A stretch of DNA of 33,675 nucleotides, taken from the NCBI GenBank assembly GCA_004124475.1, contig SCKK01000040.1, positions 1 to 33,675 on the forward strand, given 5' to 3'. The first letter of the stretch is position 1. Each line of letters starts with the position of its first letter. Source of the DNA: Fidelibacterota bacterium. GTDB taxonomy: Bacteria > Fidelibacterota > Marinisomatia > Marinisomatales > SCKK01. A program made the translations under genes and the position numbers. Shown here one piece after another: positions 3,569 through 8,559 of this stretch. Below the pieces are notes generated by a model, which was not told where the DNA came from, did not search any database, and saw only the letters and a list, made by a program, of their open reading frames with translations.

Positions 3569-5944
3569 TCATCGCCAATCATGTACCCACAACCTGTTCC
3601 CATCCGACTTAAACCAGATGGCATGATCGATATCTGTTCTGTAGATTTTTGCTCCTGATTCTTTTAACCGAGATAAGACAATCTCCGATGGATGTTTAAA
3701 CTTGTTTCTGTCTCCCACAGAAATAACCGCATAGTCTGGTTTAGCGAGGTTAAGAAATGGCTCGGTTGTGCTGGTAATGGAACCGTGATGACCCACCTTT
3801 AATACATCTGTTTTTAAGATTTGACCAAACCGCAACATCTCATGATCTCCTTCCCTTTCGAGATCTCCAACAAAGAGGAACGAAACCTGTCCATAAACCA
3901 ACTTGAATACGATACTGGCATTATTAGCGCTTGTCTCTGTTGCAGCATAAAGACTATCAGGATGAAGGATATATATCTGTGCTGGTTCAAAACTATTCTC
4001 CCAGACGCCTCGTTTTACACGTTGATATGAAATGGAATCTTGATCTATCTTTTTTAATATTCGTTGGTAAATATGAGACTGATAGTCAAAAAAGGTGTCC
4101 CAAACTTCATGGATTGTAATATTTTTTAAAAGCGTTTCAACACCTCCGATATGATCACTATGGGGATGAGACATGACCATAATATCAACTTCCTTTATCC
4201 CAAAATGTTTAAGGACAGGCAGAACTACGCGTTCTCCCACATCACGCCAGAAAGATTTCATTCCTGCATCGACTAAAACTATTTTCATCCCATCTTTTGT
4301 CGGAATCCTGACGAGAATTGCATCACCTTGTCCCACATCCAGAAAAATGACATCGAGTTGCTTTTTTTCTATCGACCATGGCAGAACAAATAGATTTGCA
4401 CAAAGCAAGCAAGCCAATACACCTTTATTCCTCCACCCAACTCTAAATATGAAAAACAAGGTTCCCACAAGTGCCATATATTGAAATACTTGCAGAAATG
4501 AAGGAGTTGCAAGCTCAAGATAAGCGAAGGGTACATTCGAGAAAAATTTAGTCAGAAAGAAAATGAATTGTGATACGAGCCAGGCGCTATTTCCTAAGAT
4601 ACCTCCAACAAAAGGAATCCAACTCCCAAGGAGAAGTATTGCAAATCCCAAAGCTACCAATACCCCAATTAATGGGATAATGATGACATTCGCTATGAGT
4701 GAAATAATGGGAAGTCTGTTAAAAAAGCTCCAGGTAAAGGGAAGCGTTCCTATTTGCGCTGCTACGGATACCAGGAACAGAGCAAACACGTATTTTAAAA
4801 AGGGAGTTTGAATTTCGGACACCCTTAACCTTTTCGGTAAAATTATTTCAAACTGACTGAGGAAAAATACAATTGAAATGACTGCTGAGAAGGATAGAAG
4901 AAAACCGACATCAAAAAGATAATCAGGTTTATATATCAACAATCCTAATGCAGCTACCGCGATAATATTCCATAAATTACTCTTTCGGTGAAAAAGTGGG
5001 GCAAGGACAAAAAGAGAAGCCATCAGCGTTGCTCGCCACACACTGGATTTTCCTCCGGTCAGTACGGCATATCCCATAAGAAGTAAAATTATGAGAATCT
5101 TATTCCAACCGTACGGAATCCTGAATATTTTTACCAGTACAATCAAAATAACAAGGACATAGCCCACATGCAGTCCGGAAACGGCTAAAACATGGATCAC
5201 TCCTGTATCCACAAAATCATCCTTTATTTCTTTTGGAATTTCATCTCTTAACCCTACAATCAACGCTGTTAACAGATTCCCGGCATCTCCCCCAACATGC
5301 TCCTCAAACAGATTTCGAATTCCTATCTGTAATGTACTTATTTTCTTTGTGGTGCTATTTATTTCCCCCACCACGGCAATATCTTGAGACTTATCTTCAA
5401 AAATCTGACCCCAGATTCCCCGACGCTTATAAAATGATGAAAAATCGAATTCTCCGGGATTTCTGGGAGGTATGAACTTTTGGAAGAAACCATTGGCATT
5501 CACTATATCCCCCACTTCAATGGGTTGAGTTTCATCGGTATATAGAAAGATCTTAGTATCGTCTTTCAATACAGCATGATTACCCTGAAGCAGTTGGTTT
5601 TTCAATAAATACTTCCATCCTTTTTCAGTTTGTTTTACAGAAAGCACTTCTCCCGTTATTTCAACATCTTGTTTTTCAAAATGGGAAAGGGATAAATCGA
5701 TGTCTTGTATGGAGAATTGAGAGATACTCAACCGAGCCAATCCGCTCATAAAAATGACACCCCAAAAAAATATCAATAACGGCTTTCCTTGCTTGATAAA
5801 CCAGATAATGGCAACCAAGATAATTAAAATCCCCAGTAAAATTGAGGTGGGTAAATGAAAGTAAAATTGTATCAGTATCCCGGCAATAAACAAGACACAA
5901 AAGGACACCAGAGGCGCCCTTTCGTGATATTTGTATAGGTTCAA
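3569..5944 (-). CDS. comEC: ComEC/Rec2-family DNA internalisation protein
   Basis: This is a 791-residue inner-membrane protein with the full ComEC layout. N-terminal membrane helices (about 10-75) are followed by a soluble OB-like DUF4131 region (about 90-195). The Competence domain (about 220-500) carries HVLAVSGLHVG at 251-261 and many hydrophobic helices. A metallo-beta-lactamase-like domain (about 530-791) carries DVGQGDAI and the metal motif HPHSDH at 593-598. ComEC forms the channel for single-stranded DNA uptake in natural transformation, and the hydrolase-like domain is thought to degrade the other strand. Translation appears to start at TTG, with AGGGAAG upstream overlapping the end of the preceding gene, so the two are probably co-translated. 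No other competence gene is visible here. Confidence 0.93.
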   Translation of the reverse strand: MNLYKYHERAPLVSFCVLFIAGILIQFYFHLPTSILLGILIILVAIIWFIKQGKPLLIFFWGVIFMSGLARLSISQFSIQDIDLSLSHFEKQDVEITGEVLSVKQTEKGWKYLLKNQLLQGNHAVLKDDTKIFLYTDETQPIEVGDIVNANGFFQKFIPPRNPGEFDFSSFYKRRGIWGQIFEDKSQDIAVVGEINSTTKKISTLQIGIRNLFEEHVGGDAGNLLTALIVGLRDEIPKEIKDDFVDTGVIHVLAVSGLHVGYVLVILIVLVKIFRIPYGWNKILIILLLMGYAVLTGGKSSVWRATLMASLFVLAPLFHRKSNLWNIIAVAALGLLIYKPDYLFDVGFLLSFSAVISIVFFLSQFEIILPKRLRVSEIQTPFLKYVFALFLVSVAAQIGTLPFTWSFFNRLPIISLIANVIIIPLIGVLVALGFAILLLGSWIPFVGGILGNSAWLVSQFIFFLTKFFSNVPFAYLELATPSFLQVFQYMALVGTLFFIFRVGWRNKGVLACLLCANLFVLPWSIEKKQLDVIFLDVGQGDAILVRIPTKDGMKIVLVDAGMKSFWRDVGERVVLPVLKHFGIKEVDIMVMSHPHSDHIGGVETLLKNITIHEVWDTFFDYQSHIYQRILKKIDQDSISYQRVKRGVWENSFEPAQIYILHPDSLYAATETSANNASIVFKLVYGQVSFLFVGDLEREGDHEMLRFGQILKTDVLKVGHHGSITSTTEPFLNLAKPDYAVISVGDRNKFKHPSEIVLSRLKESGAKIYRTDIDHAIWFKSDGNRLWVHDWR

Positions 5945-5945
5945 C

Positions 5946-6404
5946 CTACTTCCCTAATAAATATTCTTTTTGCTTGTGTAAAAGCAATTCATTCGCCCGT
6001 CTCACTTTTCCTTCCTGATGAAGGATCAGAACGTGGAGGGCAAAGATAAGGTCAATCTGGTCATTATCGGGATTCGTATAAAAAGCATCCAATAATTTTG
6101 TTATGAGTTCATAGTCATATCCGATCTTTGGAGAATAATACTCCTTTATGTCATGGGCTGATTTCTCTAAAGAAAATGGCGAAGTCCAGTATTTATCTTT
6201 CTTTCGCTGGCGTTTCGCTTCATGTCCCATTATATCCAAACTTTTTGTAAATCCGGAATAAACACCTGTGATAAAGGAAACTTTCTCATTTTCACTCAAT
6301 GCCTGCCAATATTCCTTTCCAAGGACGTCTTGCGAAAACCCAAGTCTTCCCCAAATTAGAATTAATAAAAAACAAATTAATTTAATGGACTGTATCAGGG
6401 TCAT
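5946..6404 (-). CDS. Small secreted or periplasmic protein of unknown function
   Basis: A 152-residue protein that I do not recognise. Residues 1-24 are a signal peptide ending near LGFSQ. The mature part is helical and charged, with an early FITGVYSGF segment and a basic QRKKDKYW stretch around residues 65-74. There is no Cys lipobox and there are no further membrane segments. It ends one base before the comEC start, so it belongs to the same transcript. The ATG at 6404 follows a GATAAGG Shine-Dalgarno. A link with comEC is possible from position only; no function can be assigned. The insertion that carries the four-helix-bundle gene lies directly upstream. Confidence 0.75.
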   Translation of the reverse strand: MTLIQSIKLICFLLILIWGRLGFSQDVLGKEYWQALSENEKVSFITGVYSGFTKSLDIMGHEAKRQRKKDKYWTSPFSLEKSAHDIKEYYSPKIGYDYELITKLLDAFYTNPDNDQIDLIFALHVLILHQEGKVRRANELLLHKQKEYLLGK

Positions 6405-6626
6405 TACCTTATCAGCTCCGCTCCCCTGCTCCTTAATTATTTGAAACTGGAAACTGGGTTTGTTGACTGATTATCAATTATCCAATGATAATTTCATTGT
6501 GTACTTGTGATAAATGCATTTAGCTTTGGACCAAGTTTGTCAATTATCTCTGTGTATTTGCTGATTTGTGTTTCCTGTATGACCTTCCGGCGGATGAGTT
6601 TCCTCAACCACGCTTTGGTTTCTTCT

Positions 6627-6646
6627 CCCATAGGGACTCCCTTTGC
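6627..6646. repeat. Palindromic insertion inside the four-helix-bundle gene (second copy)
   Basis: On the coding strand GCAAAGGGAGTCCCTATGGG is an imperfect palindrome encoding AKGVPMG. It interrupts the family consensus between ARGSF and ETKAWL, where homologues have no extra residues. It is a diverged copy of the element at 6851-6868, which encodes SKGAPLG. Confidence 0.5.
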
Positions 6647-6850
6647 GAGAAATGATCCTCGCGCATACCGGTAAAAATTCCTCCTATCCGCTGAGTGTAT
6701 ATCGTCCATACCCTTCGGCAATGTCAGATGCAATACTAACAGCAGAACGAATGATCTGGTATCCGATAGTGTTCTGTACCTTTTTTGACCATTCATCGAA
6801 AGCATACCATATTAAATCCGAGAGCTTTTCAGCCAATTTATATACATCCC

Positions 6851-6868
6851 CCAAAGGGGCTCCTTTGG
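6851..6868. repeat. Perfect palindrome at the start of the four-helix-bundle gene
   Basis: CCAAAGG and CCTTTGG form a seven-base-pair stem around a four-base loop. On the coding strand it encodes SKGAPLG immediately after the ATG, ahead of the conserved DVYKLAEKLSD block. Together with the copy at 6627-6646 it shows that a short palindromic element has entered this gene twice. Confidence 0.6.
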
Positions 6869-6939
6869 AGCAGTTCATAAACTTCTTTCATTTACTTCTT
6901 GCTCCAGTTTCCATTTTCTAGTTTCAAGTTTCTGCTCCC

Positions 6940-8559
6940 TTACTCCCCATCAAAGTGGTTTACAATCGGATATCTTCTTCCCATCCCAAATGCCTTTGGA
7001 GTTACTTTTAACCCGGGTGCTGCCTGCCGTCTTTTAAATTCAGCTTTTCTAACAAGACCAAAAATATGATCCACTAACTGTTCACCATACCCAAGATTTA
7101 CAAGTTCTCGCTTGCTTAACCGGTTTTCTACAATCTCATCCACCAATGGACTCACCTTGCTATAATCAAACGGATCAACTTGTTTTTCAGACAATTCCGC
7201 AGATGGAGGTTTGGAAAATATATTTTCAGGAATAATTTGTCCACCCCTTTTGTCGTTATACCATTGTGCTACTGAATAGACATCCATCTTACTCAAATCA
7301 CTGATGACAGCCAATCCACCACTCATATCGCCATACAGTGTGCAGTAACCCAGCGCCAATTCCGTTTTATTCCCTGTGGAAAGTACGAGGTAGCCAAATT
7401 TATTGGAAAACGCCATCAGTATATTTCCACGGATTCTTGCCTGAATATTCTCCTCTGTCGTATTCCTGCCTACCCCATCAAATGTTTTCGTAAAAAGAGA
7501 CTCGAACTCAGAATGGAGGTCTTTAATAGGAACAGTCCTCAATTTTACTCCCAGATTTTTCACCAGCTCAACTGCATCATTCTGACTATCGCCGGAAGTG
7601 AATTTGGATGGCATGGAAATACAAAGAACATTGTTTTTACCAAGAGCTTCAACGGCGATACAGGTAGTTAATGCAGAATCTATACCTCCACTTAACCCAA
7701 TGACACATTTTTTATGATCGGTCTTTGAAAAATAATCGCGAACTCCTAAAATAAGACCTCGAAACAATTCCTCATTTCTTTGAATAGAATAGGGAGCTAT
7801 TTCTTTTCCCATCCCATCATTCAAAGCTACCATCACAATTTCCTCTTCAAACTGCCTCCCCTCTGCAATAAGGAATCCTTTGTTATCGTAGGCAAGGGAA
7901 TGTCCATCAAAGATTAACTCGTCCTGCCCGCCCACAAGGTTGCAGTAGAGATAGGGGATTTTTAGACGCTTTGCCTTTGATTTTACTAATGCCATTCTTT
8001 CAAACCGTTTTCTTACATGGAACGGGGATGCAGATATATTGATGAGGAGATTAGCTCCATTTTCACATAATTTATCCGCCACCCTAAATTGATAATTTTC
8101 ATCCCACAGATCTTCACATATCTGAAGCCCAAGCTGAATATTGTTTCCTCCAATTTTAATAGAAACAGGAGTGAATTTTGACCCAGCAGAGAAATATCTG
8201 TCTTCATCGAACACGTCATAAGTGGGAAGTAAAACTTTATCATAGTGGGCAGTTATTTCCCCGTTTAACAGGATTGCTGCGGTGTTAAAGAGATGATGTC
8301 CCTCCAATCTTACAAATCCAATAACCACAGGGATACGAGCCACTTTTGATGCAATCAATTCAACTGTTTCTAAATTCTTATGGATAAACCTGTTTTCCAA
8401 TAGGAGGTCTTGTGGGGGGTAGCCAGTGATGGTCATTTCAGGAAAAACGACCAAATCGGCGCCCGATTCTACAGCAGATTTATAAAATGATAAAACTTTA
8501 TCAGCGTTATACCAGAAATCACCTACAATAGTATTTATTTGACAGAGAGCAATATTCAA
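6940..8559 (-). CDS. nadE: Glutamine-dependent NAD(+) synthetase
   Basis: A 539-residue two-domain enzyme that makes NAD from nicotinic acid adenine dinucleotide, ATP and glutamine. Residues 1-250 form a nitrilase-type glutaminase with the triad Glu41 (FPEMTITGY), Lys108 (HYDKVLLP) and Cys148 (LQICEDLW). Residues about 265-539 form the synthetase, with the ATP-pyrophosphatase P-loop SGGIDS at 290-295 and LSTGNKTELALGY further on. The start is a TTG codon with GGGGTG about ten bases upstream. Just upstream of it lies a 127-bp MITE-like element that separates it from the acylphosphatase gene. Its stop codon lies inside the direct repeat flanking the four-helix-bundle insertion. Confidence 0.95.
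   Translation of the reverse strand: MNIALCQINTIVGDFWYNADKVLSFYKSAVESGADLVVFPEMTITGYPPQDLLLENRFIHKNLETVELIASKVARIPVVIGFVRLEGHHLFNTAAILLNGEITAHYDKVLLPTYDVFDEDRYFSAGSKFTPVSIKIGGNNIQLGLQICEDLWDENYQFRVADKLCENGANLLINISASPFHVRKRFERMALVKSKAKRLKIPYLYCNLVGGQDELIFDGHSLAYDNKGFLIAEGRQFEEEIVMVALNDGMGKEIAPYSIQRNEELFRGLILGVRDYFSKTDHKKCVIGLSGGIDSALTTCIAVEALGKNNVLCISMPSKFTSGDSQNDAVELVKNLGVKLRTVPIKDLHSEFESLFTKTFDGVGRNTTEENIQARIRGNILMAFSNKFGYLVLSTGNKTELALGYCTLYGDMSGGLAVISDLSKMDVYSVAQWYNDKRGGQIIPENIFSKPPSAELSEKQVDPFDYSKVSPLVDEIVENRLSKRELVNLGYGEQLVDHIFGLVRKAEFKRRQAAPGLKVTPKAFGMGRRYPIVNHFDGE

Follow-up and report, generated by a model that had tools for sequence, protein, structure and literature searches.

A decayed S23 gene with inverted heptanucleotide array ends between nadE and its neighbour: a probable IVS-like mobile element outside rRNA

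Introduction

Intervening sequences (IVS) of 23S rRNA are units of ~0.4 kb with complementary, stem-forming ends, which carry an S23 gene in Coxiella, and their sporadic distribution has suggested horizontal spread (PMC4990558). The locus described here raises the question of how an S23 gene came to stand between nadE and another protein-coding gene, and what kind of unit it belongs to; the window is the whole stretch of DNA that was analysed, 33,675 nucleotides in length. The question touches a second group of sequences, the bacterial heptanucleotide repeats: their arrays are intergenic, contain mixed related heptads and show indels in 7-nt steps (PMC4679880, PMC4692102); earlier authors described them as spreading horizontally by no evident mechanism (PMC4679880) or gave them no established function or origin (PMC4692102).

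Results

Anatomy of the unit in the window

The unit of ~490 bp (6441-6932) lies outside any rRNA gene, between nadE and a 152-aa ORF, and its ends are inverted arrays of the heptad GAAACTK. The features of the locus are the following:

3569-5944: comEC-like gene, next after the 152-aa ORF
5946..6404, minus strand: 152-aa ORF, downstream of the element; no Pfam match
6413..6432: left remnant of an older octad (GCTCC) array hosting the insertion (compared with the empty allele L028)
6441..6457: inverted array that terminates the unit on the downstream side of the S23 gene, TTGAAACTGGAAACTGG, with GAAACTG heptads
6494..6878, minus strand: S23/23S_rRNA_IVP (four-helix bundle) gene, decayed; Pfam PF05635; intact in the paralogue L008
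6626..6649: palindrome-like segment of 24 nt, inserted in frame into the S23 gene; present in the congener copies L064 and L066, absent from L008
6903..6932: inverted array that terminates the unit on the upstream side of the S23 gene, TCCAGTTTCCATTTTCTAGTTTCAAGTTTC; minus-strand reading GAAACTTGAAACTAGAAAATGGAAACTGGA
6933..6946: remnant of this octad array on the right side; overlaps the nadE stop codon
6940..8559, minus strand: nadE (NAD+ synthase), upstream of the element

A previous sequence-only reading of this DNA had described complementary repeats around the gene, and these were confirmed at 6441-6457 and 6904-6932: the two arms (6441-6457 and ~6903/6904-6932) are 88-93% complementary across 15-17 nt. 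Period 7 was found at both arrays by Tandem Repeats Finder, and in a scan of the entire window this site was the sole strong period-7 segment of the 33.7-kb contig. The same reading had recognized an S23/IVP-type gene, and the family is correct by Pfam (PF05635), but the gene is no longer intact: it is frameshifted, with its first half in one phase, its second half in another and an in-frame TAG at 6684-6686, while the frame is open in L008. Besides this gene no other was found between the unit ends, and no transposase is encoded there.

L008, a 90%-identical copy, is located on a different contig; its ends are of the same type and its outer flanks differ, thus the arrays can be taken as the boundaries of the unit; the end at 6441-6457 recurs in L008 and in the congener loci L064 and L066. 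The anticipated folding of the unit into a stem-loop was also supported: its RNA fold is more stable than those of shuffled sequences (z = -3.1) with the terminal arrays paired, and in the intact paralogue (z = -4.0) the arrays make up a nearly continuous terminal stem. Rfam gave no meaningful match at the window site.

Apart from the arrays, palindrome-like segments were noticed at 6626-6649 and 6849-6871 (TCCCATAGGGACTCCCTTTGCGAG, CCCCAAAGGGGCTCCTTTGGAGC), a pattern that matches three times in the window where 0.11 matches would be expected. The insert at 6626-6649 resembles palindromes of the Rickettsia palindromic element kind, which are likewise inserted in frame.

The empty site at nadE

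Among the 60 relatives sampled, G001 was the only other species of the same genus (NadE 92% identical, 93% nucleotide identity). The empty site that had been expected in a relative was indeed found in this congener, but it carries a short octad array, CTCCGCTCCCCTGCTCCTCTGCACCTCTGCCCCCC, as the only sequence between nadE and the 152-aa gene, and it measures ~50 nt and not the ~30 bases which had been calculated from excision. Pieces of the same array flank the unit of the window at 6413-6432 and 6933-6946. The direct repeats TGCTCCTTAA (6427-6436) and TGCTCCCTTA (6933-6942) had been placed correctly, nevertheless they do not represent one target site in duplicate: the TGCTCCYTTA repeats are remnants of the older octad array, longer in the empty allele, and their interpretation as a target duplication has to be abandoned. 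Of two closely related species, one thus has the unit at this position and the other lacks it, which would reflect either a gain here or a loss in the congener.

Other copies in the genome and in the congener

The 3.15-Mb genome contains 26 PF05635 matches, corresponding to about two dozen copies, several of them broken. Further copies with GAAACTGG-type flanks had been predicted; most copies are flanked by inverted 7-/8-nt arrays, but in most of them the 7- or 8-nt motif is a different one, and it changes from copy to copy: ACGTTNT (L003), GTGAGTA (L006), GTATANG (L007), TGCGGAT (L012), AAGAACC (L013), TTCGTAT (L014), GTGTTNNN (L002, L004), GGGAGCNN (L005) and others besides. The central proposal of the sequence-only reading, an IVS-like unit inserted outside rRNA, is therefore upheld by the empty site within the genus, by the other copies with inverted flanks and by the presence of L008 elsewhere.

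Occupied and empty sites could be paired between this genome (G000) and the congener at nadE, L003, L006, L015 and L024, and one site is occupied by different elements: in G000 it holds L005, with GGAGC arrays, and in G001 L066, with GAAACT arrays; the GGAGC element of the L005 type is found elsewhere in G001, as L058. These elements are mobile. The empty allele of L003 retains a short piece of the ACGTT array, and its breakpoints stand almost level with each other in the stem. Between orthologous copies the arrays differ in length by entire 7- or 8-nt units, usually in one arm, and in both in L013. Concerted change of the two arms was considered: it was seen only in L013/L180 and was absent in L007/L062 and L008/L064, and since the unit changes are mostly one-armed it is not general.

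Solo arrays with no S23 gene also occur. One of them (L079, own genome, C8:~1000) drifts through GTGTTCA, AGTTTCA, AGTATCA, CGTTTTA, CGTTTCA and CGCATCA, as if the motifs evolved stepwise. A second palindromic repeat family (GCCTGCCCCGTAGCG...CGAAGGAGC...CGGGG) is nested in or adjoins heptad arrays (L008 ~1380-1415, right flank of L010, upstream of L020, and L060 of G001) and varies between the two species. A sequence of approximately AAAATRGCTTTGAGCAGG adjoins three different elements on their outer side, in the left flanks of L008, L058 and L066; it may be a landing sequence common to them or one more repeat.

Arrays arrive with the insertion

In ten occupied/empty comparisons, six of the empty sites are free of arrays (L006, L024, L165, L167, L168, L169); an array is present at the empty sites of nadE (GCTCC), L015 (CTGAAAA), L173 (ATTACGA) and L003. 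The arrays thus come with the insertion at the array-free sites. Five complete cyanobacterial plasmid pairs have the element between genes that are adjacent in relatives:

L165 vs L195: cas10/cmr3; empty relative without array
L169, L204 vs L196-L198: integrase operon; empty without array
L168 vs L201-L203: empty without array
L167 vs L199: ribonucleotide reductase genes; empty without array
L173 vs L200: cas6/cas4; L200 carries a solo ATTACGA array

At L165 and L169 the empty form is widespread, therefore gain is the simplest reading there. Two of the elements (L165, L173) lie inside CRISPR-Cas operons of cyanobacterial plasmids, and empty relatives exist for both. In a Nostoc plasmid the S23 element has TAGGGAG ends, and two cargo-less TAGGGAG array hairpins are located less than 5 kb from it.

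No target-site duplication of fixed length was recognized by eye in the occupied/empty pairs, where duplications were absent or of unlike lengths; the candidates were a TTCTAR-like one in L168 and an unclear 13-nt similarity in L024, with none clear elsewhere.

Among 73 loci, the more similar two S23 proteins are, the more similar are their arrays (Mantel r 0.43, a value reached in 0 of 2000 permutations): proteins of less than 60% identity have unrelated motifs, and above this level most motifs are shared. Lineage structure contributes to this correlation, hence it indicates co-inheritance and not yet recognition. The motif is element-borne, common to elements with related S23 proteins and otherwise different.

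The S23 protein

Pooled dN/dS is near 0.1 for four orthologue-like pairs (L007, L008, L012 and L005 with their G001 partners); two more pairs have only non-synonymous changes and bring the pooled value, which rests on few substitutions, to about 0.2 over six. L002/L059, with a dN/dS of 0.58 from similarly few substitutions, was left out of the six-pair pool. For an intact copy a fold was predicted (pLDDT 94) that agrees with the S23 structures 2gsc and 2rld and, more weakly, with Avd (TM-score about 0.8 to 4dwl and 8ub7), and there is a weak match to the bAvd profile. Q34, the NIAEG motif, R52 and E71 are among the conserved residues. We know of no enzyme activity in the S23 family.

Survey across phyla

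A consensus S23 protein was used as query and gave 80 loci in unrelated genomes, to which nine cyanobacterial plasmid loci were added; the left flank was scored against the reverse complement of the right flank at a fixed threshold of 14. This score was reached by 67 of 83 PF05635 loci from about a dozen phyla, and by none of the controls (0/71 for the same loci 700 nt away, 0/29 for NadE loci). Against swapped flanks, a null inflated by shared motifs, 69 of 85 loci had p < 0.05. Strong 7-/8-nt periodicity was present in 64% of the S23 flanks and in 4% and 5% of the controls. A minority of S23 loci has weak or no arrays (e.g. L088, L097, L170, L171). Because the loci were picked by similarity to the consensus protein, the exact fraction is not a census; the copies of the window's own genome, which were not selected in this way, show the same inverted-array pattern.

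A universal heptad consensus was sought and rejected: the strand of the 5' arm shows only a tendency to be rich in G and poor in C and to contain AG. Stop codons in all frames as the cause of period 7 did not prove general on inspection. The consensus query gave no S23 match among phage records, and conserved 23S rRNA stretches were absent from the S23 loci checked.

Discussion

The identity of the element is well supported: with a probability of roughly three in four, the unit of the window belongs, as a decayed copy, to a family of small mobile elements that have a single PF05635 gene and inverted 7-/8-nt array ends. Most probably it represents a mobile element akin to the IVS but situated outside rRNA, with an S23 protein that would bind the terminal array stem. 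In the mechanism that we propose, the terminal arrays would pair into a stem, and the S23 protein would bind the stem that its own arrays form, whether in RNA or in single-stranded DNA, and unite the ends; joining to a new site could be carried out by host replication or repair, or by an enzyme acting in trans. Intergenic gaps, including those within operons, would be the places where insertions survive. Slippage might lengthen or shorten the arrays by whole units, and where the cargo was lost or never present, solo or hairpin arrays would be left, which would account for many bacterial heptanucleotide repeats.

Four other explanations were weighed. An enzyme in trans might be a Y1 (HUH) transposase of the REP/IS200 type, mobilising the elements through their hairpin ends with S23 as a passenger or accessory; we consider this unlikely. 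The genome has seven Y1_Tnp matches, and S23 and Y1_Tnp tend to occur together in the order (61 genomes, G000-G060: 21 with both, 8 with S23 only, 4 with Y1 only and 28 with neither; odds ratio 18, P = 2e-6), but lineage and genome size confound the association and the array motifs follow the S23 protein. Moreover, G034 (95% complete) has 11 S23 matches and G024 has 6, in both cases with no Y1_Tnp, which means that an HUH transposase is not obligatory.

It is distinctly improbable that the heptad arrays are ordinary intergenic simple-sequence repeats produced by polymerase slippage, in or near which S23 genes happen to land. Heptamers are over-represented in many genomes (PMC4692102) and an array stands at the element-free sites of nadE, L015, L173 and L003, but the array-free majority of the ten empty sites argues against it, as do the two arms of a locus, which match in inverted and not in direct orientation, and the way in which motif similarity follows protein similarity.

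Retro-mobility, in which S23 would work like Avd with a reverse transcriptase and copy the RNA of the element to new sites, draws on the Avd-like fold (Avd belonging to the ribonucleoprotein of diversity-generating retroelements), on the weak bAvd profile match and on the stem-loop RNA; it has little probability in our judgement, given that no RVT_1 (PF00078) match was found in this 95%-complete genome.

Finally, a vertically inherited, immobile gene serving the host in ribosome or RNA metabolism, with the stem as a signal of mRNA processing or stability, would suit the purifying selection in several orthologue pairs, the location inside operons and the cleavage of IVS stems by RNase III in 23S rRNA (PMC4990558), but it is hardly tenable and is refuted as sole explanation by the empty sites in the congener and in complete plasmids, and different elements at one site, many decayed copies and a scattered occurrence in one order (0 to 26 matches per genome) speak against it as well.

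The IVS-like mobile element, as the preferred reading, gives an orphan family, known chiefly from rRNA intervening sequences, a role as cargo of a seemingly widespread mobile element, and offers a vehicle for the heptanucleotide repeats: similarly built units with motifs of their own stand between ordinary genes in many bacterial phyla and may explain many of the 7-base repeats. Both ideas are directly testable in laboratory cyanobacteria or Bacteroidota. A wider proposal, which we put forward tentatively as a real possibility, is that these elements may form an enzyme-less class whose spread is driven by an array-specific S23 protein; the STRR, TAACTGA and GGGAATC repeats, found throughout genomes and familiar for decades, would then be its solo ends and scars, and rRNA IVSs a special case that landed in rRNA.

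Several known systems are similar in part. Insertion sequences have their own transposase, and those of the DDE type a target-site duplication of fixed length; both are missing here. MITEs and REP/RAYT elements are likewise short, intergenic and transposase-free with inverted ends, and cargo-less array hairpins exist here too; the present elements differ by their own conserved gene, their degenerate-array termini and the lack of a consistent target duplication. The cargo-less hairpins of the Nostoc plasmid would fit the definition of a MITE, but the unit of the window, with its PF05635 gene, does not. With the Avd protein of diversity-generating retroelements the S23 protein has the four-helix-bundle fold in common, but no reverse transcriptase was found in this genome, and a template or variable repeat is not in evidence.

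The STRR of cyanobacteria, TAACTGA of Beggiatoaceae and GGGAATC/GGGGAYT of Xanthomonas and Nostoc are tandem, partly degenerate intergenic heptads like the arrays described here, but they have been described as solo direct repeats of unclear origin, or as regulatory or G-quadruplex elements. A text search of PMC4679880 and PMC4692102 gave no mention of S23 or four-helix-bundle genes, and in the literature searched no paper was found that joins S23 elements with heptad repeats. The 23S rRNA IVS of Coxiella, Leptospira, Salmonella and others resemble the present elements in their complementary ends, which form a terminal stem, and, in Coxiella, in the S23/IVP protein; in contrast to these, the elements described here sit between protein-coding genes, have element-specific 7-/8-nt array ends, occur in many copies per genome, and show occupied and empty sites at many places.
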